From: an uncultured Pseudomonadota bacterium
Lineage (GTDB): Bacteria; Pseudomonadota; Gammaproteobacteria; Xanthomonadales; Wenzhouxiangellaceae
Assembly: GCA_937138395.1 (NCBI GenBank)
Contig: CAKZPB010000117.1
Location: forward strand, 1 to 64,000
Direction: 5' to 3'
DNA: 64,000 nucleotides
Shown: in pieces, positions 34,225-48,648 of the stretch
How positions within the stretch are numbered: the first letter of the stretch is position 1
Layout: every line of letters begins with the position of its first letter
Notes under the pieces: generated by a model
Seen by the model: only the letters and a program-made list of their open reading frames with translations
Database searches by the model: none
Told to the model about the DNA's origin: nothing
Program-made: the position numbers and the translations under genes

Positions 34225-34259
34225 TTCACACTAATTTCAAGCAAATTTTAAGTTACAGA
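34225..34259 (+). promoter_or_regulatory. 11-bp direct-repeat activator box with -10 (copy P1)
   Basis: TTCACACTAAT and TTCAAGCAAAT stand head to tail, followed by the half unit TTTAAGT and the -10-like TACAGA at 34254-34259. The same architecture, base for base in spacing, precedes the 40352 operon (P2) and the 48561 gene (P3). The first coding ATG is 60 nt downstream. The -35 position falls within the repeats, as in PhoB-type activation; the binding protein is inferred. Confidence 0.82.
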
Positions 34260-34319
34260 CCGGGCTCGCCCTCATGATCGGGGTTCGATTTAAAGAAATC
34301 ACAACGGTCAAGTGAGCCC

Positions 34320-36992
34320 ATGATGCAAGCCCAATTCAAGCTGCTACTGATACTGTCAGTGCTATCAGCACAGGCCTTCGCAGCAACCATCCCCGTAGGC
34401 GGGCCCGACGGCTGCTCGCTGGCCAATGCCATCCGCAGCGCCAATCAGGACAATTCGGTAGGCAACTGCACAGCTGGCTCCGGCGCGGACACCATCATTA
34501 CGCCAGACAACTGGACCGCCAATCTGACGACAACATTACCGACAATCGATACGGATATGACCATTGAAACCCAGACTGACAATGGGCGACTGGCAATCCG
34601 ATCAGACACCATCGACCTGATTCGCCTGATACGCGTGCGAGGCGCCAACACCGATCTGGTCTTGAGGAATGTATCGATCACCGGCGGTCGCACCAATTTC
34701 ACCCTCGGGCGTGGTGCCGGAATGAATATTGAAGATGCCAGCGTAACAATCATCAATTCAATCATTGGCGCGAACAGGGCGACCGATATTGACGGTAGCG
34801 GCATTTTTATAAGAAATGGTGAACTGCAGCTCGAATCAAGCATCATTCGATTCAATAGCGTTGCCACCACAGGACTACCTCGCCCTGAACGTGAGGCTGC
34901 CATTGTTGCGGTGAATTCAGATGTCGAAGTCAACCGATCCGAGTTTTACAGAAATTCCGGCATCGAGGATGGACCATTCTTTGGTGGCAGTATTTTCATG
35001 GATGGAGGCACGTTGCTTTTTCAGAACAGCTCGATTCAGGAACAGTCGCTTGGGCTTAGAGGCAACGATGCCATAGTCGAAATTATCAACGCGTCGTTCG
35101 ATGAATTAAGTAACGATGCATTTCTAATCATTTTTGAGGATTCCACACTTTTTCTAAGCCATGTCACCATGCGCTTATCAAATTTGTCACTTTCCGATTC
35201 AACGTTGTCGATAACCAATAGCTTCATTTTCGAATGCGGTTTTGGGAATGTGAATGTGATTCTGGATGCCGGCAACTACAGAAGCGATAGCGACTGCCCC
35301 GGTTTATCAAGTTTCAATGCCCCCATTCTTCCATTGGCACAGAATGGAGGGCCGACGCGAACCAACCGGTTGGAATTCTCGTTCAATCAAGAGTTCAACC
35401 AACTCATCAATAACGCGGATCAAGCCTTTTGCGAGCCGTTCGACCAACGCGGCGTAGCGCGTGCAGGGCTATGTGATGTGGGCGCTTACGAGGCAGCAGA
35501 TCTGGCGGATGTGAGTGTAGAAATCGATCTAAGCGAATCTGAACCGTTTGGTGTTGGGCAAAATCTAACAGCAAACCTGGTCATTACCAACAATGGACCG
35601 GAACGAGCCAACAATGTTCTTGTGGATTTGCAGACCGATCAAGCGTTTATTCAGAGTGTCAATTCAAGCGTATGTCCAACGCTACCCTGTGAGATCAACA
35701 CCATAGTTGCCGACCAGATTGTTGCAATCCCGATTCAGATTAATCTTGGCGGCAGCGATGGGGCCGAATTCAACCTGGACGCTTTCGCGGTGTCGACTGA
35801 AAACTCACTTCACACAGATCCTGACGAGTCAGACCAAGACAGCAACAACTTTGCCAACGTCACAGGCACAACCAATTTAAGCGCTGATCTTGGCGTTGAA
35901 TTCAACCTGATAGATCAACCCCCGTACACCAATAATCAATTTGTTCAGTATGAAGCGACTGTAAGCAATCATGGGCCGTCTACTGCACTCAACGTGGCAT
36001 TCAATGTTGAACTCGATAATCTGGATATTGTTAGCTGGACTGGCTGTGTTACCACGTCAGGCTCGATCTGTAACATTGGTGGCATCCTTTCCGGCGGCAG
36101 TAGGCAAGTGACGCTGCTCGCTCAGCTCAACTCAAATATTTTCAATTCCGCAGCCGAAGTTTCAGGCAGCAGGCTGGACATCAACCCCGATAACAACATT
36201 GACTCCACAAACAACGGCGGCGGCGTGGATGAGACCAATATTGCGGTTTTCCTCGACATCATCACCGATCCGCCCTACTACAGCGATCAGTTCATTGAAT
36301 TCACGATTGGAATACGCGCAGAAGATCCAGCAACCAGCATACAAATTTCCTACGAGTTCCCAGGCGCTGAATTGATCAGCATTGAAGGCTGTCTGCAATT
36401 CCCCTGCATACTGCCACCACCGTTCGATTTGGCAGCAAATGAAAGCCTAGTGCTGGATGCTCGATTCTTTGCACCCATTCGTATCTCCGATGACTCGGAT
36501 GAATTCGAATTTACGGTCACCGCCATTCCAGGCCAAACCGATGTCGATCTAGGCAACAATACGGCCAGCCTAAGCCGTGACTTGAATTTCTCAAGCGATA
36601 TAGTCACTCAATTAGAGTTGATATCTGAGCCACCGTTTATCGCTGGGCAGGAAATCCTCTACGAACTGAAAGTAGGTAATGGCGGGGTCAACAACGCCGC
36701 CAATGTGTCCATTGATCTGATACCGAACAATCTTCTTTTGGTATCAGCTTTCGGCCAGCAGTGCGATACAGCGAATTGTGTCATTCCACAGCTTGATTTT
36801 GGCAATCAGGAGGTCATTACGCTGGTTTATCAAATCGAACAGGGAGGAGTCTTTAACCTGATCGCACAAGCTTTTGCCGATGCATTCGACCCGGGCATTG
36901 AAAACAATATCGATAATCTTGACAACGGCGGGTTTGCCGACGATGCGCCTGATATTGATCGGATTTTTAATGACAGTTTTGAATCACCGTAA
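34320..36992 (+). CDS. Secreted beta-helix / DUF11-like protein with DSFE tail
   Basis: 890 residues. A signal peptide ends near SAQAFA. Residues about 22-380 start with GCSLANAIRSANQDNSVGNC, a CSLREAI-type opening of parallel beta-helix proteins, and continue in beta-helix repeats (ITGGRTNFTLGRGAGMNIED and similar). Residues about 395-870 hold four DUF11-like immunoglobulin-type domains, each with a (D/S)-x-P-(P/F)-(Y/F) opening and N-x-GP or related turns. The C-terminus is DIDRIFNDSFESP. Base composition is visibly more AT-rich than the nuo or tldD regions, especially around 35040-35280. Preceded by promoter box P1. No enzymatic motif seen; a surface or secreted structural role is inference. 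Confidence 0.82.
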   Translation: MMQAQFKLLLILSVLSAQAFAATIPVGGPDGCSLANAIRSANQDNSVGNCTAGSGADTIITPDNWTANLTTTLPTIDTDMTIETQTDNGRLAIRSDTIDLIRLIRVRGANTDLVLRNVSITGGRTNFTLGRGAGMNIEDASVTIINSIIGANRATDIDGSGIFIRNGELQLESSIIRFNSVATTGLPRPEREAAIVAVNSDVEVNRSEFYRNSGIEDGPFFGGSIFMDGGTLLFQNSSIQEQSLGLRGNDAIVEIINASFDELSNDAFLIIFEDSTLFLSHVTMRLSNLSLSDSTLSITNSFIFECGFGNVNVILDAGNYRSDSDCPGLSSFNAPILPLAQNGGPTRTNRLEFSFNQEFNQLINNADQAFCEPFDQRGVARAGLCDVGAYEAADLADVSVEIDLSESEPFGVGQNLTANLVITNNGPERANNVLVDLQTDQAFIQSVNSSVCPTLPCEINTIVADQIVAIPIQINLGGSDGAEFNLDAFAVSTENSLHTDPDESDQDSNNFANVTGTTNLSADLGVEFNLIDQPPYTNNQFVQYEATVSNHGPSTALNVAFNVELDNLDIVSWTGCVTTSGSICNIGGILSGGSRQVTLLAQLNSNIFNSAAEVSGSRLDINPDNNIDSTNNGGGVDETNIAVFLDIITDPPYYSDQFIEFTIGIRAEDPATSIQISYEFPGAELISIEGCLQFPCILPPPFDLAANESLVLDARFFAPIRISDDSDEFEFTVTAIPGQTDVDLGNNTASLSRDLNFSSDIVTQLELISEPPFIAGQEILYELKVGNGGVNNAANVSIDLIPNNLLLVSAFGQQCDTANCVIPQLDFGNQEVITLVYQIEQGGVFNLIAQAFADAFDPGIENNIDNLDNGGFADDAPDIDRIFNDSFESP

Positions 36993-37029
36993 CCGCTGGC
37001 GCAGTTGCCAAACAAGTATCGGTGCTGTT

Positions 37030-39927
37030 TCAATCAGCTGAATCAGTATTCAATGCAGCCATATTTTGATTGGCCAACTCAAGCATCGGTTCGAAACCCT
37101 GTTCTGCGGCGGTTTGAATAATCCAAAGCAGCTGCTGTTCAGCCAGTTCCGGTTCTGACACTCGGGCTCTAAGCAGCGCCATATTTAAATTCTTCAGTGC
37201 ATGCGGCGAAGCATCCAGTAACTGGCCAATCCACTGAAGCAATTCTTCAGCTTCGCTGGTCCGCCCCTGTTCAATCAGGCTATCGGCCTGCAGCAGCAGC
37301 GCATCGATTTGTGAGTACACATTGTTTTCTGCGCCGAACACATCGGCTAGCCGGCGCGCTTCCTGTTCGGCCTGAACCCGATTATCCAGCGCCAGCTGAA
37401 CCCGGGCCAGATCCAATTCAGACACCAGCTGCCAGTCGGGTGCAGATTCTCGCAGCTGGAAAGCGCGCTGAAAATACGTCTCAGCTGCCTGGAAATCCTG
37501 TTTGGCATACGCCAGCTCACCTCGCAGCGTTTCAATTTCCGCCGCACGGATAGGATTTTCGATAGCCAGGGCATCGAGCCTTTCAAGAAGCTCAGCACTT
37601 TCCTCATTACGGCCCATGTCGAGCATGATCGCACCTTGAGTTACATAGGCGCGTGCCTCGAACATGGTGCTGCCCTGGCTGGCGAACCGCTGGCCTGCAT
37701 CAAGGATCATCTGCTCAGCCAAGTTGAGATTTCCAAGCCGCCGGTGCACCAACGCCAGATTATAGGCCGTGCGTGCAGCATCGATTTCCGCTTCAAGCTG
37801 ACGAAACAACTCCAGCGCCTCAGTATTCAGTTCAATCGCGCGTTCAGTGGCACCACGTCGGCTGGCGAGGGCGGCAAGATTACCCAGCGTAATGGCTTGT
37901 CCGCGCAGATCTTCAATATCGACAAACGCTTCCAGTGCGCGTTCCAGAGCACGCTCGGCCTGATCGGATCGACCCTGGCGTGCAAACAAGGTGCCACGAT
38001 TGATCAGTGCGACCGCCTCGCCCTGGCGGTCGCCGATTTCACGATAGAACAGCGCGGCCTGGCCGAGGTTGGCCAGGGCTTCGTCGGGCCGACCATTCGA
38101 CATCAGCGTGATACCCAGATTGACGTGCGCCCGCGCCAGATTTCGCTGATCCCCAAGCCCAGTCAGCATCTCGATTGCAATATTCAATTGCTCCAGCGAC
38201 GAGTCGAGCCGACCGGACCTCTCCAGCGCCATGCCCCGCACGATTGCCGTTTCGGCCAGCCCTGGCTGTGAGTTGACTTGAGTAAATAGATCCTGTGCCT
38301 GATCGGCAATCGTCAACGCCTGTTCAAGATCACCCTGCTGGAACAGCAAACTGGCCTGGATCACTTTCAATTGGGCGCGAGCTGGCACCAGGTCATCCGT
38401 TGCCGGAATATCCGAGATTCGTTCAACCGTCGCCAATGCTTCGTCCACCCGACCGAGCTTGCGCAGGGCATCGGCTTCTAACGCCAGCGCTTCTGCCGCC
38501 ACCACGGGCAGCACAGCTTCAAGCGCCTGCCGGTAGGCATTCCGGGCGATGTCCAACTGCTGTTCGACCTGGTTTTCCGCACCGGCGAGTTCAGCCTGAA
38601 GCAGACCGATGCGCGGATCGTTTGGCATCTGGCGGTCGAGCAACTGCAGGGCTTCACCGGCTGTTTCAATTCGATCCGACTCGATCTGGGCATGAATCAT
38701 GCGGCGGATATTGGCCGGCTCTGGGAAGAACTGATTTAAGGCCTGGAGGCGGTCAGCGGCCAATTCGAAGTCGAAATCCAGGCGGGCGGCTGTAGCTTCA
38801 ATCGCCAGTCGGTTACGGCGGGGCCAGAGTTCGGTGGCCTGTAACGCGGCAGTAATGCGGGTTCGGGCTTCCAGAATATTACCCTGCTGGGCCAGTGCCT
38901 CGCTTTGCAATTGAATCAAAAATGGATCATTGATCTGCATATCGGGTATGGCCTTGATTGCTGCCACCGCTTCATGCCGATTGAGCAACGCCTGTGCCTG
39001 AAAAAATGTGCGCTGCAGATCCACTTCCGGTGGCAACAGCGAACGAACCGCAGCCGGTGTGATTTCCGGCAAAGACTCAATATCGAGCCAGTCACTGATC
39101 GCACCAGCCAATTCAGTGCTGATCAGACCAACATCAATGCGGTCATGTTCAACGGCCACCCGGGTCAACGGCTCATACTGGTCTGGTTTTTGAATCGTCG
39201 CAACCACTTCAATACCGCCGTCGGCCAGGAGGTTGAAGCTCGGCTCAATTTGATAATCTACTGCACCCTGAACAATCTCCGAATCGATCGATGACGCCGT
39301 CACATTCACGCCAGTTAATTGGCTCAGTGAATGGCCAAGAAACAGCTTCATTGCAGGTGGCAACCAGTCATCTGCATTGCTGTTGATCGCCTCACCCTGA
39401 TCGTCAAAATCGGCAATCGCAACGGTAATCGTAGGCTGGCGATTCGTCTGACGATCGGTATCCGGTGGAGCAAAATTGTTTGATGCCCACCAGGCCGCAA
39501 ACAATACGATGACCAAACCAGCGGCGAACAGCGGATTCGGGACTTTTATCCTTGGCGTTTGAGCCTGAGCTTGCCGCGATTCATGGGCAGTATTCCGGGT
39601 TGCCGAGGCATCTCCAGCATTGATCTCTGCAATGAACTGATAGCCAAGCCGGCGGCGCGTAGCGATAAATCGAGGCTTGCTACTCGAATCACCAAGTGCA
39701 ACGCGTAATTCCTTGATCGTTTGCGAAACGGAGCTGTCGGACGTGGCCTGATGCCCCCAAACCGCGTCCAGCAGATCGTTGCGGGAGACCACGGCCGGTG
39801 CCTGCTTCAGTAAATGACAAAGCACCGCAAAACTTTGCGGTCTGAGCATGATCGGCCCGTCCGGGCCGCTTAAGGATTTCTGATCAAAATCCAGCGCAAA
39901 ATCGCCGAACCGTATGATTGTCGTCAT
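37030..39927 (-). CDS. Membrane-tethered OmpR/PhoB-type transcription regulator with TPR sensor region
   Basis: 965 residues. Residues 3-101 are an OmpR/PhoB-type winged helix: LRPQSFAVLCHLLKQAPAVV, a recognition helix around SDSSVSQTIKELRVAL (63-78) and a wing RFIATRRRLGYQFIA. There is no receiver domain. A single membrane helix lies at about 132-149 (NPLFAAGLVIVLFAAWWA), the CadC/ToxR layout. The remaining 800 residues, predicted periplasmic, hold an alpha/beta region (about 165-280) and then many TPR units rich in Ala/Leu/Glu (such as NLGITLMSNGRPDEALANLG). It sits between the secreted-protein genes and is the obvious candidate to bind the 11-bp repeats at P1-P3. The stop lies 37 nt from the convergent 34320 gene. 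Signal sensed unknown. Confidence 0.9.
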   Translation of the reverse strand: MTTIIRFGDFALDFDQKSLSGPDGPIMLRPQSFAVLCHLLKQAPAVVSRNDLLDAVWGHQATSDSSVSQTIKELRVALGDSSSKPRFIATRRRLGYQFIAEINAGDASATRNTAHESRQAQAQTPRIKVPNPLFAAGLVIVLFAAWWASNNFAPPDTDRQTNRQPTITVAIADFDDQGEAINSNADDWLPPAMKLFLGHSLSQLTGVNVTASSIDSEIVQGAVDYQIEPSFNLLADGGIEVVATIQKPDQYEPLTRVAVEHDRIDVGLISTELAGAISDWLDIESLPEITPAAVRSLLPPEVDLQRTFFQAQALLNRHEAVAAIKAIPDMQINDPFLIQLQSEALAQQGNILEARTRITAALQATELWPRRNRLAIEATAARLDFDFELAADRLQALNQFFPEPANIRRMIHAQIESDRIETAGEALQLLDRQMPNDPRIGLLQAELAGAENQVEQQLDIARNAYRQALEAVLPVVAAEALALEADALRKLGRVDEALATVERISDIPATDDLVPARAQLKVIQASLLFQQGDLEQALTIADQAQDLFTQVNSQPGLAETAIVRGMALERSGRLDSSLEQLNIAIEMLTGLGDQRNLARAHVNLGITLMSNGRPDEALANLGQAALFYREIGDRQGEAVALINRGTLFARQGRSDQAERALERALEAFVDIEDLRGQAITLGNLAALASRRGATERAIELNTEALELFRQLEAEIDAARTAYNLALVHRRLGNLNLAEQMILDAGQRFASQGSTMFEARAYVTQGAIMLDMGRNEESAELLERLDALAIENPIRAAEIETLRGELAYAKQDFQAAETYFQRAFQLRESAPDWQLVSELDLARVQLALDNRVQAEQEARRLADVFGAENNVYSQIDALLLQADSLIEQGRTSEAEELLQWIGQLLDASPHALKNLNMALLRARVSEPELAEQQLLWIIQTAAEQGFEPMLELANQNMAALNTDSAD

Positions 39928-40351
39928 GGATTTTGAATCCGCATCTCAAATTCCCTCTTTGACGATTAGTGTATTCCATCCGCGCGATTGCGAGTCAGCA
40001 AATATGTCGATGCTGTGGCCATATCGAGTACGCCACTGTTTTCTCGGTTGTGCTGGCTTTGTGATTTAAGCATTTCGTCCACTCCAATAATGTCTTGCGC
40101 CCATCTTGAGTATTGTTTTTTTCTGGATCAAGTGCTGTTTGTACCCAACAAGGCTATCTTCCGTAAAAAAACCAATTGATACAGCAGGTTATACCTGGAT
40201 TTAACAAACCCTTCGATTCAATTTTCACGATAATTTCAACGCAATTACACGTTATCTGAGCTGATGCTGGCTAGCATCACTATCCAATAAACCGGGGTTT
40301 CTGACCAGGCATGGTGCCCGGCTCTTTACCGAGAATTAAGGGATTGTAGCG
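39928..40351. other. Divergent intergenic region between regulator and FG-GAP operon
   Basis: 424 nt, AT-rich relative to its neighbours. It holds promoter box P2 at 40224-40258. A 63-codon plus-strand frame at 39988-40179 has no family features and is not called. No copy of the repeat box is seen close to the regulator start, so autoregulation by the same element is not supported here. Confidence 0.65.
40224..40258 (+). promoter_or_regulatory. 11-bp direct-repeat activator box with -10 (copy P2)
   Basis: TTCACGATAAT and TTCAACGCAAT, then the half unit TACACGT and the -10-like TATCTG at 40253-40258. Distances between units (11 and 11 bp) and to the hexamer (29 bp from the first unit) equal those of P1 and P3. 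The start codon of the FG-GAP gene is 93 nt downstream. An extra TTCA lies at 40217. Confidence 0.82.
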
Positions 40352-43300
40352 ATGCTAGGGAAAAGCCTGAAGCGTGTTCAATTTAGCCTGACCGGCGTTC
40401 TGTTCAGTTTTGCATTCATGAACGTGCTGTCGGCCAATGAGCCGATCAATGGTCCAGTAGGGCCGGCGGCCGGGCTGGCTCTAATGCAGGGACAACAACA
40501 AGACCGTGGCACAACCGTCTTTGAACAGGCATTTTTGAAAGCGTCGAACGCAAACGCTGATGACAATTTTGGCGTCGAAATTGCGATCAATGAAGCTGGC
40601 ACCATCTTAGTTGTAGGTGCTCGCTACGAAGATAGTGATGGCAGTGGGCCTGAAGACAACTCCATCCAGGATGCCGGCGCAGCGTATGTATTCGAACGTC
40701 AAATCAATGGCGACTGGATTGAAACTGCCTACTTAAAACCATCATTACCCTATTTCCCTGGACCGGCTGGTTTCATCACTGGTTATCAGTTTGGGTTGGC
40801 AGTGGGTATTTCAGGTGAAACGATCGTCATTGGTGAACCATTCAGGGACATTGACGGCATTCAGGCCGGCATTGATTTTAACGAAGGCGCGGTCTACGTA
40901 TTTGAACCAGATGAAAACGGCGACTGGGTCGAAACGGATGTATTGCTCTCCTCGAGACCAAATCCAAGCCAGGATGAGTTCGGCACTGCGGTAGCCATTT
41001 CTGGAGATCGTCTGCTCATCGGTGCCCAGCGCGAAACTCGACCCGGCATCGGTCGCAATGGTTCGGTACGCGCCTACACCCGAAACAGCAATGGTCTATG
41101 GGAAGAAGAGGATGTCTTGTTTCCAGATGCAGAGCCTAGCGACATGTATTTTGGAAATAAGATCGCACTTGATAATAACCGCGCAATCATCAGCGCCCCG
41201 CTTGAAAGCAGCGATGGAAGTTCACCCAATGATCAGTCCAAACCGTTTTCCGGGGCTGCATTCATATTCGAGCGCGACCCAAACGGCCAGTGGGATCAAG
41301 TTGCCTACCTGAAAGCCAGCAACGTCGATGAAGATGATTCGTTTGGACAAAGTGTTGGTATATCAGGCAACGTTGCCGCTGTTGGTGCCAACAGTGAAGA
41401 TAGCGACGGTTCGGATCCAGGCAATAATACGTCTAATGCAGCGGGTGCAGTGTACATTTTTGAACCAAATGAATCTGGCGACTGGGTTCAAACTCAGTTC
41501 ATTAAATCGCCTGATCTTGATTCTTTTTCCCATTTTGGCTTTTCGCTTGACCTAGAAGACCAGTCACTTCTTGTGGGTGCCAATATTCATGAACAGCAAC
41601 AAGGCACCAGCTATCTATTTGCACAAAACGAGCAGAGTAGCTGGGTTTTTCAACAGCGAATTATCCCAGACATCAGGGGTTCTGGAGACCGCTTTGGGCA
41701 CCAAGTCGCCCGAGGTGGAGGACGTTTCCTGATCAGCAGTTGGTGGGAAAGCAGTGACCCTGACATCGGGCCTGGAGACAGCTCACTTACTCGATCAGGC
41801 GCAGTCTACTTATTCGGTTTGCCTGGCCTTACTGTTGGAGGGCAAGTCAGTGGCCTGATCGGTAATGGGCTGGTTCTTCGAAATACTCAAACCGATGATG
41901 ATGTATCCATCGTTACTAACGGCGATTTTACGTTTCCCGTTCCTTTGCAGGACGGCGAAAGTTATGCAGTCAGCGTATTGCAACAACCCGATAACCCCGA
42001 GCAGACCTGCACGGTCAGCGATGGCACGGGCATTCTTTCAGGGCAAGACGTGACCGACATTGATATCAATTGCGTACTGACCGAAACATTTACCTTAGGC
42101 GGTATAGCTACCGGAGTAAACTTCACCGGTCTCATGCTGCAGAACAATGGTAGTGATGACCTGACGATTATTTCTCCGGGCGGCCCTTTTACTTTCGACA
42201 CCGAGCTGGCCAATGGTGAAAACTATGAGGTCACCATCATTGAAAGCTCTATCGACCCAACGCATGTCTGCTCAGTAAGTAACGGCAGCGGCACCATCAA
42301 TAGCTCGGACGTCAGTGACGTGCTGGTCGAGTGTAGTTTCAGATCCACCTTTCCGATTGAAGCTGAAGTGACCGGCCTGACCGGCAGCGGATTGGTGCTG
42401 CAGAACAATGGTGGCGACGATTTGGCGATACCTAACAACGGCACCTTCCGGTTTGCGACTGAACTTGAACTGATGGACTCGTATTCGGTCACCGTAGCCA
42501 CGCAGCCAAGCAACCCGGCTCAGGCTTGTGTCGTTAACAACGGCAGCGGCATCGTGGGCGAGATCAGCATCATCACCGTCGAGGTGGTTTGCGAGACCGC
42601 TCAATATGAAATTGGCGGGATGGTTTCGGGCTTGCCTGCCCCGGGGCTGACGTTGTTCAATAACGGCACGGATTTCATCATGATCAATGCCGATGGCCCA
42701 TTCATCTTCCCGACGCTGCTTGAAGACGGTCAATCCTATAACGTTACTATCGGATTACAGCCAGAGGATCCTTCTGGTGGCGAATGTCTGGTCGCAAACG
42801 GCACGGGCATGGTTAACGGCATGAACGTGAATAATATTCAGGTTACCTGCGGCGTGCTTCCGACAACATTCAGTCTGGGTGGAACGGTGTCGGGGCTGAA
42901 AGGTATCGGTCTGGTGCTCCAAAACAATGGCACTGACAGCGAGATTATCAATCAGAATGGTCCGTTCAGCTTTTCAATAAGGCTCTCGGACAGCGAACCC
43001 TATACCGTCACAGTCGCATCACAACCTGATGGAGGCATAGAGCAGTGCCAGGTATCGAACGGTACTGGCGTAGTCGACGGGATGGATGTGACCGATATTC
43101 AAATCGACTGCACCGCGCTGATCGCAGACCTGACCATCAGTAAGACCAATGGGTTTGCGTTTGTCGACAACGGCGTATCAACAACCTGGTTTATCGAAAT
43201 CAAAAACGTGGGCGCGGTTGACATCATCGGCGCGACGCTAAGCGACCCGTTACCGGCCGGTGTGACCAACGCAAGTTGGAATTGCAGTGGCAGTGATGGC

Positions 43301-43543
43301 GGTATCTGCCCGAATGCCAACGGAAGCGGTAGCATCAATGAAGTCGTGGACTTATCAGTCGGCAGCACGCTGAGTTATGAATTCACCGCCACGGTCACAG
43401 CCATGGAAGGGAGTGTCATCAGCAATACCGCCACCATCACCCTGCCTCCTGCCCAAACCGATATCAATCCAGCCAACAACTCCGCCACCGACACCGACCC
43501 GGTCGGGCTGTTTGCCGATGGGTTTGAAGATGAACTGGATTGA
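40352..43543 (+). CDS. Secreted FG-GAP propeller protein with five carbohydrate-like repeats, DUF11 and DGFE tail
   Basis: 1063 residues. A signal peptide ends near VLSA. Residues about 50-480 form an FG-GAP/integrin-alpha-like beta-propeller of about seven blades, each with (D/S)FG..(V/L)A(I/L)...(I/V)VGA and AGA(A/V)Y(V/I)FE. Residues about 493-920 are five tandem repeats of about 85 residues built on (V/L)GG.VSGL.G.GLVLQNNGTD, FxFxxxLxDGxxYxVTV and C.VSNGTG. A DUF11-like domain follows, then DPVGLFADGFEDELD. Several acidic blade loops (DSDGSDPGNN) could bind calcium. It leads a two-gene operon under P2. No enzyme motif seen; adhesion or surface display is a guess from architecture. Confidence 0.85.
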   Translation: MLGKSLKRVQFSLTGVLFSFAFMNVLSANEPINGPVGPAAGLALMQGQQQDRGTTVFEQAFLKASNANADDNFGVEIAINEAGTILVVGARYEDSDGSGPEDNSIQDAGAAYVFERQINGDWIETAYLKPSLPYFPGPAGFITGYQFGLAVGISGETIVIGEPFRDIDGIQAGIDFNEGAVYVFEPDENGDWVETDVLLSSRPNPSQDEFGTAVAISGDRLLIGAQRETRPGIGRNGSVRAYTRNSNGLWEEEDVLFPDAEPSDMYFGNKIALDNNRAIISAPLESSDGSSPNDQSKPFSGAAFIFERDPNGQWDQVAYLKASNVDEDDSFGQSVGISGNVAAVGANSEDSDGSDPGNNTSNAAGAVYIFEPNESGDWVQTQFIKSPDLDSFSHFGFSLDLEDQSLLVGANIHEQQQGTSYLFAQNEQSSWVFQQRIIPDIRGSGDRFGHQVARGGGRFLISSWWESSDPDIGPGDSSLTRSGAVYLFGLPGLTVGGQVSGLIGNGLVLRNTQTDDDVSIVTNGDFTFPVPLQDGESYAVSVLQQPDNPEQTCTVSDGTGILSGQDVTDIDINCVLTETFTLGGIATGVNFTGLMLQNNGSDDLTIISPGGPFTFDTELANGENYEVTIIESSIDPTHVCSVSNGSGTINSSDVSDVLVECSFRSTFPIEAEVTGLTGSGLVLQNNGGDDLAIPNNGTFRFATELELMDSYSVTVATQPSNPAQACVVNNGSGIVGEISIITVEVVCETAQYEIGGMVSGLPAPGLTLFNNGTDFIMINADGPFIFPTLLEDGQSYNVTIGLQPEDPSGGECLVANGTGMVNGMNVNNIQVTCGVLPTTFSLGGTVSGLKGIGLVLQNNGTDSEIINQNGPFSFSIRLSDSEPYTVTVASQPDGGIEQCQVSNGTGVVDGMDVTDIQIDCTALIADLTISKTNGFAFVDNGVSTTWFIEIKNVGAVDIIGATLSDPLPAGVTNASWNCSGSDGGICPNANGSGSINEVVDLSVGSTLSYEFTATVTAMEGSVISNTATITLPPAQTDINPANNSATDTDPVGLFADGFEDELD
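41828..43116 (+). repeat. Five tandem ~85-residue protein repeats inside the FG-GAP protein
   Basis: In-frame repeats starting near residues 493, 577, 664, 749 and 834. Each carries a VSGL or related opening, LVLQNNGxD, a FxF...LxDG(E/Q)xYxV core, a Cys near the end of the unit (QxCxVxNGTG) and a second Cys at the boundary (I.CT/V.C). Two Cys per unit suggests one disulfide per domain. Unit sequences have diverged, so the expansion is not recent. Confidence 0.85.
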
Positions 43544-43600
43544 TCTTTTGCGATCCATCAATGCGCAGTCAAACTTTAATTTCATAGCAGGACGCTAATC

Positions 43601-45625
43601 ATGACGCCCTTAAAACGCACTCAACTGGTCACCGCATTGCAACTGGCCCTGGCGGTTGGCTTCAGCCATCACGCCATGGCCCAGCCTTTTCCGGCCGAAA
43701 TCAACCTGTCCGATCTGGACTCCAGCGATGGGTTCAGTATCGACGGCGAGGCCGACTATGATGCTTCGGGCTTTTCGGTCAGCGGCGCGGGTGATATCAA
43801 CGGGGACGGACTGGATGATTTGATCATCGGCTCTCCGTATGCCGACCGTGTGAATTACACCGTGGGTTCAGCACATGTTGTGTTTGGTTCCAGCTCTGGT
43901 TTCTCAAGCCCCACTGATCTCGGCAGTCTCAACGGCAGTAACGGCTTCGAGATGACCAATCAGGTCGGGTCTGATCAAGTCGCACGCTCAGTCAGTAATG
44001 CGGGCGATGTCAACGGGGATGGCATCGACGATGTCATCGTCGGCGCTGCCTATTCCGACCCGAACGGGAATGGCAATGCCGGACGCAGCTACGTGCTGTT
44101 CGGTAGCGATACCGGGTTTCCCGCTGAATTTGACCTCAACACGCTTGACGGCAGCGACGGTTTTTCCATCAACGGCGAGGCGGGCTACGACGAATCAGGC
44201 TTTTCGGTCAGCACGGCAGGCGACGTCAATGGCGATGACATCGACGACCTGATCATTGGCGCGCCGGATGCAGACCCCAATGGCAGCTATTCAGGCCGCA
44301 GCTATATTGTATTTGGCACGGATTCCGGTTTCAGCAGTGAACTGGAGCTCAGCAGCCTGTCGGGCAGTATCGGCTTTGCCATGAATGGCGAAACCGCATA
44401 CGACGGATCCGGGTATTCAGTCAGCACGGCCGGCGATTTCAACGGCGATGGCTTTGACGATGTCGTGATTGGTGCGCCAGGTGCGATGGGGAATGCATCG
44501 GGATCTGGACGCAGTTATCTCGTTTTTGGTGGCGCGGGCGTTCACACTGATTCTCTGAATTTAGGTCAGCTGGCGGGGTTTAAAGGGTTCATCATGGATG
44601 GCCAAGGCATGAGTGATGACACTGGCATTAGTGTGAGTGCTGCAGGTGACTTCAACAACGACGGGTTCGATGACTTGATTATTGGTGCCGACGGAGCCAC
44701 GGTAAATGGGCAAGGACAGTCCGGCAGAAGCTACATCGTATTCGGCACAGATCAGCTGATTTCCACACCCCTCAACCTCGGTGCGCTGAACGGCAGCAAC
44801 GGCATCATCATTCAGGGCGATCCGGGCGAGGACGAAAGTGCAAGCCTGGGACGTTCTGTGCATGGTGCAGGCGATATCAACGGCGACGGCATTGATGATG
44901 TGATCATTGGCGCGCCTGAGGCCGGCGTATATCCTGATCGAACGGGAAAAAGCTACGTAGTCTTCGGTACCGATTTAGCCCTGCCTGCCGTGTTGGACAT
45001 CAACACGCTCGACGGTATCAATGGCCTGGTGTTGAATGGTGAGGATAATTACGATTATTCCGGACATGCAGTCAGCGCGGCCGGGGACATCAACGGCGAC
45101 GGTATTGATGACCTGGTCGTCGGTTCGTACAGTTTCGAACCGGCTGGCGGCTACAGCCGGCCGGGTCGAACGTATGTGGTATTCGGCCGTCCGCTGCCCG
45201 ATCTTGCGGTCACGAAAAACAATGGCTTCGCCTTTGTCGACAGCGGCTTTTCAACCACCTGGCAGATCGAAGTCAGCAATCTGGGTGCCTCGGCCGTCAA
45301 CGGCGCCACCTTATCGGACACAATTCCCGCCGAGGCCGGCAACGCAAGCTGGACCTGCAGCGGCAGCGGCGGTGCGACCTGCCCGAATGACAGCGGCAGC
45401 GGCGATATCAATGAACTGATCAATCTTCCGCCCGGCAGTAGCCTCACCTACCAACTGACCGCAACCGTCACCGCGACAGAAGGGAACAGCATCAGCAATA
45501 CCGCCACTGTCACCTTGCCGGCCGGTTTAGGCGACAACAACCCGGCCAATAACAGCGCCACCGACACCGACCCGGTCGGCCTGTTTGCAGATGGCTTTGA
45601 AGATGAATTCAACCCCAAAGGCTAG
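43601..45625 (+). CDS. Secreted FG-GAP beta-propeller protein with DUF11 and DGFE tail
   Basis: 674 residues. A signal peptide ends near HHAMA|QPF. Residues about 30-530 hold seven FG-GAP blades with the calcium-type motif D(I/V/F)NGDG(I/L/F)DD(L/V)(I/V)(I/V)GA, each followed by GRSYVVFG. A DUF11-like domain (about 533-655) and the tail DPVGLFADGFEDEFNPKG are very close to those of the preceding gene. It starts 57 nt after that gene with no repeat box of its own, so it is taken as the second gene of the P2 operon. The repeat motif is that of integrin-alpha N-terminal propellers; ligand unknown. Confidence 0.88.
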   Translation: MTPLKRTQLVTALQLALAVGFSHHAMAQPFPAEINLSDLDSSDGFSIDGEADYDASGFSVSGAGDINGDGLDDLIIGSPYADRVNYTVGSAHVVFGSSSGFSSPTDLGSLNGSNGFEMTNQVGSDQVARSVSNAGDVNGDGIDDVIVGAAYSDPNGNGNAGRSYVLFGSDTGFPAEFDLNTLDGSDGFSINGEAGYDESGFSVSTAGDVNGDDIDDLIIGAPDADPNGSYSGRSYIVFGTDSGFSSELELSSLSGSIGFAMNGETAYDGSGYSVSTAGDFNGDGFDDVVIGAPGAMGNASGSGRSYLVFGGAGVHTDSLNLGQLAGFKGFIMDGQGMSDDTGISVSAAGDFNNDGFDDLIIGADGATVNGQGQSGRSYIVFGTDQLISTPLNLGALNGSNGIIIQGDPGEDESASLGRSVHGAGDINGDGIDDVIIGAPEAGVYPDRTGKSYVVFGTDLALPAVLDINTLDGINGLVLNGEDNYDYSGHAVSAAGDINGDGIDDLVVGSYSFEPAGGYSRPGRTYVVFGRPLPDLAVTKNNGFAFVDSGFSTTWQIEVSNLGASAVNGATLSDTIPAEAGNASWTCSGSGGATCPNDSGSGDINELINLPPGSSLTYQLTATVTATEGNSISNTATVTLPAGLGDNNPANNSATDTDPVGLFADGFEDEFNPKG

Positions 45626-45628
45626 CTA

Positions 45629-45646
45629 GCCTCCGCCGCAGGAGGC
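45629..45646 (+). terminator. Possible terminator hairpin after the FG-GAP operon
   Basis: GCCTCC and GGAGGC (loop GCCGCA) form a 6-bp GC-rich hairpin just past the 45625 stop, between two convergent genes. The following sequence is only weakly T-rich, so intrinsic termination is uncertain. Confidence 0.4.
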
Positions 45647-45750
45647 CTGGCGCCCTTGTGTTCGTTTAACGGGCAACAAAATCGATGGCTGGAAAAACCC
45701 TGCGTGTCGGCCAGGCTCAAGGCACCATGGGTACCCAGAGCCGAATACTT

Positions 45751-48561
45751 TTACTCCGCTTCCATACTATCGCTGAAGAATGCTTCAACCAGGCGTTTAG
45801 CTGCACCCTGAAAGACAATAATTCCATCATCCGGAGTAGCATCGCCTGGCGCTCCGTCGGTTAAGGTGACGGTCCATTCTTGTCCATTCAGTGTGGCTGG
45901 CAGTTCGTGCCAGATCGCCCGATCTTGATCCGGGAACGCCAGCCCGTAGCCGCGCAATACATAGCTTGGATCCGAAAAATCTGCGCCATGGTAGATCAGC
46001 GTGACTTCAGCCTGTTCGCAGTCCGGAATGCGCAGATGCAGACCGTTCAGCGGCGGCTCATAGGTCGGTTCTGCCGGCAAATTATCCAGCAAGTCCAGAC
46101 CGAAGCTGTCCTGTAACACCTGGCAGTTGCCATCGATGCCATTCAGACTCGCCGTGATGTAATTTGCAGCGCCTCGGCTATTCGAGTTTACGGTTGGCGA
46201 TGCTACGTCAGATTGCGTTTGGTCCGGCACGCCATCAGCGTTGCCATCGCCACCATTCGGCGCATCACCTTCCGTCGTGTTACTTGCACCATCGGTATCA
46301 CCGTCGGGTACGACTTCGAACGTCTGCACGCTTTTATTGGTGCCTGCGTGGATAACGATATTTGAGTCACTGGTATCGAGCGCTAATTTTAGTGGTACCG
46401 CAGTAGTTGGAAAGCCCGTACTGATGGAAGACCAGCTTGCACCATCATCACTACTTACAAACACGCCACCGTCGCCGTTACCGAAGGGGTCGGCTATCGC
46501 TGCATACACATCGCCAGAATCCGGATCGACCACAATATCGCGTACGTCGCGCTCTTCCAGGCCACTGCCTGAAAATGTCCAGTTTAGGCCGCCGTCGACC
46601 GTTTTATATACAGACCCGAATACAAGTGTCACAAGATCGTTTACTGATGCATACAGCGTCTGCCCGCTGGGATCGGTCGGATCGAAGGCAAGCGAAAGAA
46701 CGTTGAGTGTAGATGCAGTTGGATCATTATTGATCCGCGGCAGGCCATTGGCAGCATTAAACCAGTTCGCACCACCGTCGACGGTTTTAAACACACCATT
46801 TTCGAGCGTCAGCGGTGCTGTTGAAGATCGAAAATTGATAAAAGTAGAAGCGTACAGCGTATTACCCGTAGTGTCGGTCGTATCCTGCACCAGCTGAACA
46901 ACGGAGACGAAGCTGGCTATGCCGTTGGCATCAAGCTCTCCGCCGCCAAGACCGTTATCACTGGCGAACCAGTTGGCGCCAGCATCAGTGCTTTTATAAA
47001 TTCGAGCCGCTTGTTTGACAATCGTACCCATACCGTCGTTCGCAAGTCGTCCTTCAGCGCCCGCATACAGCACTTGAGAATCGCCGCTTGAATCAGCACT
47101 GAAACGATCGACTTCGATGTCCCTGACAGTTCGATAGATCGCAAAACCGGACGGCTGCAAAGGAATACCCGTATCAATGGTCGACCAATTAACGCCCGCA
47201 TCCGTACTCTTGTACAGTCCGCCATTGCCCGGAATAAATACGCCCTGCGCATCCGTTCCTCCAGAGAAAATGCCGCCGCCGTACACGACATCAGTATTAT
47301 TTGGATCCACCACCAGCGCCCTAAAACTATATGCGTCAAGCCCATTATTCGCTTGAGTCCAGCTGTTACCGCGGTCTTCACTCCGAAAGCTGGCAAAAGC
47401 CGGAAGCTCAATATCACTCAGCGCCGCATGTACACGTCCGCCAGCAGCGGTTGCGATGGCTCGAATGCTTTGTGCTTCAAAACCCTGATTGCTTTGCGCG
47501 AAGATATCAGACGACACCGGCGAAATTCTGCGATAGATACCATTCGGAAAACTGCCAACAAGCTGTAGCGAAGGATCAAATGGGTCAAACGTGACGAATC
47601 CTGCTGTGGCTGGCTGTAACAATTCATTCCCGATTAACCCTTCGATGATGGACGTCCAGTTAGCGCCGTCATCTTTGGTGTATTGAATACCCTGGCCACC
47701 GACTACATAGACTTCCGCAGGATCTTGCGGATTGATTGCCAGGCGTATTCCCGACACTGTGGAATCGACCGATGTCCAATTCAAACCTGCATCTTCGCTG
47801 CGGAAGACCCCGGTTGGAATACCCACCGACCAAGCGCGACCAGCGCTGTCAAACTGAATATCCCTTAGAAAAAACGTCTCCCACGGACAGCCCGATGGGC
47901 ATGGCACTTCGGACCAAACCGCACTCGGTGATGATGCGCTGACATCGGCTACCCACAAACTCGCGCTTGAAGATGATTCGCGCGTACTGACCAGCAATCG
48001 ATCTGTCGTAGCCGGATCTGCCACAAATGCCTGAATACTGAAACCCGGTGATTGAGGAATTGCCGGCAATTCAGTCCAATTGAGCCCCGAATCAGCAGTT
48101 CTTAAAATCACACTGTCGGTACGAATGAGGTAATAAACACCGGGTTGAGTCGGCGAAGCCTGCAAATCTGTATAGCGAATATTGGCGGGTAAGGAAATCG
48201 CGGGCGTGCGATCCTGCCAGATTTCGCCACCATCATTGGTAAAATAAACCCGACCGACGCCCATAGCCATCAAGCGGTTGTCTGCGGTTTGGCTATGTAC
48301 AATACCCAAAACCTGTCGATTGACACCGGCGTTTGCGGCAAACCACGATTGACCTCCATCTGTGCTTTTGAAGATACTCGTGCCCCCAATGGCATAGAAC
48401 TCACCCTGATTAAACGGTGATGCCAGAAGTGCATCGACTTCACCTCCTTCGGGACCGTTGGAGGTCCAGATCCCTTGACCTGCGTAGACAGGGCAGCTGA
48501 TATTCATTACCGTCAGCATCAACGCCGAAACAATGGTGAACTTGACTAAAGTAGCTTTCAC
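45751..48561 (-). CDS. Secreted Asp-box (BNR) repeat beta-propeller protein
   Basis: 936 residues. A signal peptide ends near CPVYA|GQG. At least eleven Asp-box motifs (S/T-x-D-x-G-x-x-W) are visible, for example STDGGQSW, TNDGGEIW, SEDAGLNW, STDAGVNW and TVDGGANW, the pattern of sortilin/sialidase-like propellers. After a Ca-binding-like linker (DGDTDGASNTTEGDAPNGGD) comes a C-terminal domain of the choice-of-anchor type with NGLHLRIPDCEQAEVTL and an anchor-like end VEAFFSDSMEAE, a divergent match to the (I/L)F-x-D-(S/G)-F-E tails. It is transcribed from P3, convergent with the FG-GAP operon. Catalytic sialidase residues cannot be assigned. Confidence 0.85.
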   Translation of the reverse strand: MKATLVKFTIVSALMLTVMNISCPVYAGQGIWTSNGPEGGEVDALLASPFNQGEFYAIGGTSIFKSTDGGQSWFAANAGVNRQVLGIVHSQTADNRLMAMGVGRVYFTNDGGEIWQDRTPAISLPANIRYTDLQASPTQPGVYYLIRTDSVILRTADSGLNWTELPAIPQSPGFSIQAFVADPATTDRLLVSTRESSSSASLWVADVSASSPSAVWSEVPCPSGCPWETFFLRDIQFDSAGRAWSVGIPTGVFRSEDAGLNWTSVDSTVSGIRLAINPQDPAEVYVVGGQGIQYTKDDGANWTSIIEGLIGNELLQPATAGFVTFDPFDPSLQLVGSFPNGIYRRISPVSSDIFAQSNQGFEAQSIRAIATAAGGRVHAALSDIELPAFASFRSEDRGNSWTQANNGLDAYSFRALVVDPNNTDVVYGGGIFSGGTDAQGVFIPGNGGLYKSTDAGVNWSTIDTGIPLQPSGFAIYRTVRDIEVDRFSADSSGDSQVLYAGAEGRLANDGMGTIVKQAARIYKSTDAGANWFASDNGLGGGELDANGIASFVSVVQLVQDTTDTTGNTLYASTFINFRSSTAPLTLENGVFKTVDGGANWFNAANGLPRINNDPTASTLNVLSLAFDPTDPSGQTLYASVNDLVTLVFGSVYKTVDGGLNWTFSGSGLEERDVRDIVVDPDSGDVYAAIADPFGNGDGGVFVSSDDGASWSSISTGFPTTAVPLKLALDTSDSNIVIHAGTNKSVQTFEVVPDGDTDGASNTTEGDAPNGGDGNADGVPDQTQSDVASPTVNSNSRGAANYITASLNGIDGNCQVLQDSFGLDLLDNLPAEPTYEPPLNGLHLRIPDCEQAEVTLIYHGADFSDPSYVLRGYGLAFPDQDRAIWHELPATLNGQEWTVTLTDGAPGDATPDDGIIVFQGAAKRLVEAFFSDSMEAE

Positions 48562-48613
48562 TGAAATTCTCGCAGTTGGAATAGGACTTCAGTCAATGTA
48601 GTGAAAGGCACGC

Positions 48614-48648
48614 TCTGTAGCTTGAAATTAGCGTGATATTATCTTGAA
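48614..48648 (-). promoter_or_regulatory. 11-bp direct-repeat activator box with -10 (copy P3)
   Basis: On the minus strand: TTCAAGATAAT and ATCACGCTAAT, then TTCAAGC and the -10-like TACAGA at 48619-48614. Unit phase and distance to the hexamer are the same as in P1 and P2. The ATG of the Asp-box gene (48561) is 52 nt downstream. The box is in the divergent region with yceI, but its orientation points to the Asp-box gene. Confidence 0.82.

Follow-up and report, generated by a model that had tools for sequence, protein, structure and literature searches.

The promoters of a small set of genes for predicted exported repeat proteins share a triple 11-bp repeat, and a gene for a ToxR/CadC-like regulator, here called B, stands among them. 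We found three such boxes in the window (the whole 64-kb stretch of DNA analysed). Very probably the triple-repeat box serves a small dedicated gene set as its operator. On balance we consider it likely that this operator defines a small regulon of the Wenzhouxiangellaceae, run by the adjacent B as an activator of the ToxR/CadC type.

Boxes and promoters in the window

The three boxes were found letter for letter where the original prediction had placed them (Table 1). All six full units end in AAT, and five of the six begin with TTCA, also as described. The boxes had been called identical; they do share one layout, but pairs of them agree at only 22, 23 and 27 of 35 positions. The third unit, described as a half, is in most relatives a complete heptamer. 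The claim that the boxes stand before secreted-protein genes holds, since the targets (A, C-D and E) are all predicted exported repeat proteins. Gene D is probably co-transcribed with C, judging from the 57-nt gap between them and the lack of a box of its own.

Table 1. Features of the window and related loci (positions are those of the window unless a locus handle is given)
Feature	Position	Strand	Description
Candidate operator box 1	34225..34253	+	TTCACACTAAT TTCAAGCAAAT TTTAAGT; three heptamers, 11-bp period; upstream of gene A
Candidate operator box 2	40224..40252	+	TTCACGATAAT TTCAACGCAAT TACACGT; divergent region between B and C
Candidate operator box 3	48620..48648	-	TTCAAGATAAT ATCACGCTAAT TTCAAGC; upstream of gene E
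Predicted -10, promoter 1	34273..34278	+	CATGAT; predicted +1 near 34285
Predicted -10, promoter 2	40272..40277	+	TAGCAT; predicted +1 near 40284
Predicted -10, promoter 3	48595..48600	-	TACATT; predicted +1 near 48588
Gene A	34320..36992	+	890 aa, signal peptide, choice-of-anchor Q + DUF11, tail FNDSFESP
Gene B	37030..39927	-	965 aa, ToxR/CadC-type; winged helix aa 3-98, predicted membrane helix about 127-150, TPR solenoid
Gene C	40352..43543	+	1063 aa, signal peptide, FG-GAP_2 repeats + DUF11, tail FADGFEDELD
Gene D	43601..45625	+	674 aa, signal peptide, FG-GAP repeats + DUF11, tail FADGFEDEFNPKG
Gene E	45751..48561	-	936 aa, signal peptide, Sortilin-Vps10/BNR/Ycf48-like repeats, tail FFSDSMEAE
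Tail [IL]F-x-D-[GR]-F-E	43511-43528, 45584-45601		
DUF3592 loci in relatives	L028:3306-3848, L057:10433-10978, L059:3388-3882, L060:13825-14313, L062:4390-5004, L063:12492-12962, L054:8061-8579		
Close B orthologues			Genomes G004, G006, G010, G015 (two copies), G020, G023, G024, G025, G027, G036

A leave-one-out weight matrix built from any two boxes placed the third next best in the window, every other position trailing by more than 11 bits. The source genome (2,841,561 bases in 142 contigs, 99% complete) was searched with a degenerate pattern at up to three mismatches, which matched only the three window boxes; the reversed control gave none. A model made solely from the boxes of other species also ranked them as the top three of this genome, with E-values of 1.1e-4 (box 1), 1.1e-3 and 2.4e-3, the next match scoring 0.017. 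That fourth, weaker match (C85:33068) has an ordinary reading frame without export signal downstream, and was taken as chance. Chance is excluded as the origin of the likeness among the three boxes. The private regulon originally proposed stands as far as it concerns three boxes, the only ones in the genome, before secreted-protein genes, while its -10 assignment does not.

The anatomy of the operator was read from 33 aligned boxes. It has three 7-bp units (TTCAmGn) with 4-bp spacers, and the consensus is TTCAmGn-wwAT-TTCAAGn-trAT-TTCAAGt. TTCA is near invariant at offsets 0-3, 11-14 and 22-25, and across the 33 sites the half-sites run head to tail with the 11-bp period of OmpR/PhoB-type operators. 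Between the box and offset 49 there is little conservation, and then nAnnnT at offset 48-53 is almost invariant (A49 in 32/33 boxes, T53 in 33/33). The same holds for the first 20 non-window boxes, which were picked without scoring offsets 48-53 (T53 in 20/20, A49 in 19/20). In a sigma-70 -10 element the two bases that matter most stand at these positions. The hexamers TACAGA, TATCTG and TACAGA do occur at offset 29 of the three window boxes, where the -10 had been proposed. As a -10, however, offset 29-34 averages only 1.5 matches to TATAAT, with A2/T6 in 3% of boxes, versus 2.9 of six and 97% at offset 48.

With the -10 at offset 48-53, the third unit would lie on the -35, at about -38 to -32, and the conserved A49 and T53 so put the operator on the -35 or immediately before it. 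The predicted transcript starts, near the +1 positions of Table 1, are about 19 nt further downstream than the rejected hexamer would place them. The -35 sequences under the boxes (TTCAAG, TTTAAG and TACACG) are weak. Together with the poor -10s they fit a promoter that needs an activator. A box that covers the -35 region is also positioned compatibly with repression, and B might bind there as a repressor, the third unit blocking RNA polymerase until a signal lifts the block. We regard this as unlikely, because the weak -35s and -10s suit activator dependence, and because activators of the OmpR/PhoB kind usually have their tandem box across the -35. We infer activation rather than repression by B, as we do its membrane topology and signal.

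Box targets and the C-terminal tail

Genes A, C and D end in the tail F-x-D-[GS]-F-E, and E has the variant FSDSME. The boxes do not serve the proteins with this tail as a class: the boxed set is a small subset. The tail pattern has 35 matches in the source genome (reversed control 0), and F-x-D-[GR]-F-E is found near the stop codon in 27 of the 30 loci opened. Among those roughly 27 tail loci only C and D are boxed. The genome has roughly 30 tail-bearing proteins, of which the boxes serve only four, and the box was rejected as a marker of all FxDGFE-tail proteins, with 35 pattern matches set against three boxes. The tail [IL]F-x-D-[GR]-F-E looks like a sorting or processing tail by its sequence. 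No tail model was named in Pfam and NCBIfam scans of the four tail-bearing window proteins, and a literature search on the tail motif and on Wenzhouxiangella regulators gave nothing relevant. Another ToxR-like paralogue of the source genome (L157:5551-9833) lies near a short tail protein, with no triple 11-bp repeat there.

In boxes with a readable gene, the distance from box to gene start is about 70-150 nt. The genes behind them nearly all encode exported or DUF3592 membrane proteins, the export or membrane call being an N-terminal hydrophobic segment in a crude hydropathy test. Among the complete large box targets, most have a C-terminal tail of the IFSDRFQ, IFDDRFQ or FADRFQ sort. In seven genomes a boxed gene beside the regulator, divergent from it or linked, encodes a DUF3592 membrane protein (five calls above the Pfam cutoff, one at the cutoff and one below), which is absent from the window locus. 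In genome G020, the products of two boxed genes (L056:18307-19998 and L106:325-2931, one of which runs off its contig) resemble each other, have a membrane segment at the N-terminus and lack the usual tail, suggesting that the regulon varies between species.

The regulator and its co-occurrence with the box

The block had been predicted to hold a gene for an OmpR/PhoB-type winged helix, and B is such a gene, although it is better described as ToxR/CadC-like, with a predicted membrane anchor and a TPR solenoid, than as a response regulator. Its N-terminal winged helix matches Pfam Trans_reg_C (PF00486, E 3.6e-16), and Pfam also finds many TPRs. The best PDB sequence match is Vibrio cholerae ToxR (E 1.7e-10), followed by YycF/WalR, CadC (3.7e-8), KdpE, OmpR, PhoB and PhoP. 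Pfam gives no Response_reg match to B, whose winged helix begins at residue 3. Hydropathy has a single peak at about 127-150 in B and every orthologue, which predicts one membrane helix C-terminal to the winged helix. In the AlphaFold2 model (mean pLDDT 82, with lower values over the first 200 residues) the winged helix is followed by a lone helix at 132-150 of low confidence, then by an alpha/beta part, and last by an extended TPR solenoid, which is probably periplasmic. The winged helix is modelled, with moderate confidence, as four strands and three helices.

We searched 60 relatives for B, taking E < 1e-140 to define close orthologues. These were found in 10 other genomes (Table 1), all Wenzhouxiangellaceae, at 42-47% identity; named records among them include Wenzhouxiangella sediminis XDB06 and Wenzhouxiangella sp. 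XN79A. A scan of GTDB 220 for orthologues outside the family yielded nine loci, of which those titled below class level are all Wenzhouxiangella(ceae), and no match from the order's other families is better than E 2e-42. Between the window protein and its orthologues the winged helix is 75% identical, compared with 38-43% for the later domains and 16% for the linker, as expected if DNA specificity is kept. The recognition helix SSV-QTIKELR-ALGD is nearly invariant among the orthologues.

The box occurs in all 11 genomes that have B, and for each of the ten other genomes the fetched orthologue neighbourhoods contain triple TTCA repeats. With a matrix made from the three window boxes only, a box was found within 400 bp upstream of the B orthologue in 9 of the 10 other genomes. 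G020 has none just upstream of its orthologue, the nearest being about 5 kb away. With the window-box pattern alone, the closest copies are in G020, G023 and G025, which all have B; its other matches are looser, at three mismatches, and many are in G044, where the reversed control also matches. In G015 a second regulator copy (L061:9364-12237) lies about 8 kb from the first, has an upstream region without a good box, and reads TRPRLGYQF for TRRRLGYQF in the wing region. It is possibly a natural specificity variant.

The other-species model mentioned above (R1, sequence-only) was made from 20 boxes of other genomes and run on 61 genomes. Its training boxes came mostly from near regulators; independent of that training are the window boxes and the genomes lacking B. 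Among the 25 family genomes with a completeness of 90% or more, boxes at E<1e-3 were found in 10/10 with B versus 0/15 without (Fisher p 3e-7, kinship ignored). Adding drafts gave 11/11 versus 3/26 (p 4e-7, kinship again ignored). The three exceptions are the drafts G028, G029 and G031 (83-84% complete), which have boxes and in which B was not found; only paralogue-like matches turned up in a search there for fragments of B. Missing sequence could explain its absence. This phylogenetic co-occurrence ties B to the box.

The boxes might instead be operators for a DNA-binding protein from elsewhere in the genome, a different winged-helix paralogue or one of another kind, with B merely linked. The source genome has 9 Trans_reg_C matches, so that several paralogues could in principle bind, and the three drafts with boxes also suit this reading. 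We give it little weight, somewhat less than we give repression, because the presence of B tracks that of the box over the 25 good-quality genomes, the box lies just upstream of most B orthologues, and no similar triple repeat was found in the neighbourhoods of other ToxR-TPR paralogues. Recent gene duplication including upstream DNA, for which the 66% identity of a region common to C and D and the location of all the genes in one block might speak, is highly improbable as the sole source of the promoter likeness, as the upstream regions are unlike one another outside the box, the domain families of A, C and E differ, and the box is kept ahead of unrelated genes across genomes in which regulator identity is no more than 42-47%, a cross-species conservation that largely refutes it. 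Binding of the boxes by B is most likely, given co-occurrence and adjacency.

Proposed mechanism and known systems

B would be a one-component activator anchored in the membrane by a single helix, with its winged helix in the cytoplasm and its TPR solenoid probably in the periplasm. The winged helices would bind head to tail, as tandem monomers, on the three TTCAmGn half-sites, with centres near -57, -46 and -35, the last occupying the -35. That -35 being poor for sigma-70, RNA polymerase would be recruited to the -10 at offset 48-53 in a class II-like activation. The proposed targets are A, C-D and E in the source genome, and in relatives also the divergent DUF3592 membrane protein. More speculatively, and in our view less likely than not, this could be a family-specific envelope circuit: with an extracytoplasmic TPR solenoid, B would monitor the state of the giant tail proteins after export, or of the co-regulated DUF3592 protein, and drive a triple-repeat operator dedicated to those genes alone, in a feedback loop that governs a surface-protein programme.

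The proposal offers a complete set of regulator, operator and targets, with motif, exact spacing and predicted starts, for a poorly studied family. It would put large exported proteins under a ToxR-type regulator whose TPR sensor is itself large, and provides a handle on the roles of these proteins and of their C-terminal tail.

Several known systems share features with B and its boxes. As in AfsR and MalT (SARP/MalT-type), B has a TPR part, which scores against AfsR and MalT-like models. What sets it apart from these STAND proteins is its Trans_reg_C domain, together with a predicted membrane helix; Pfam gave no NB-ARC/STAND NTPase match in B, and the NCBIfam AfsR score was 80 bits against a cutoff of 1430. 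Mycobacterium tuberculosis PhoP recognizes 7-bp TCACAGC motifs, head to tail with a strict 4-bp spacer, and three motifs in a row are bound more tightly (PMC4832192). The box has the same 7-bp motif length and 4-bp spacer, and TCACAGC resembles TTCACGC. PhoP and Escherichia coli PhoB are phosphorylated two-component regulators, unlike B, which is without a receiver domain. The 11-bp period is that of TcpP (TGTAA-N6-TGTAA) and PhoB (TGTCA-N6-TGTCA) (PMC4829181, PMC11358694), and the direct-repeat operator of the B-linked boxes is in this respect like that of TcpP. B resembles ToxR, TcpP and CadC in its N-terminal Trans_reg_C winged helix without receiver domain and its one predicted membrane helix. 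It differs from the small sensor of ToxR and CadC in a C-terminal part of about 800 residues, mostly TPR solenoid, and from all three in its operator, a triple TTCAmGn, and its targets, large exported repeat proteins. From sequence, B and its boxes are strongly predicted to form a conserved regulon of the ToxR/PhoB-like tandem-repeat kind, unusual in its sensor and in its targets.
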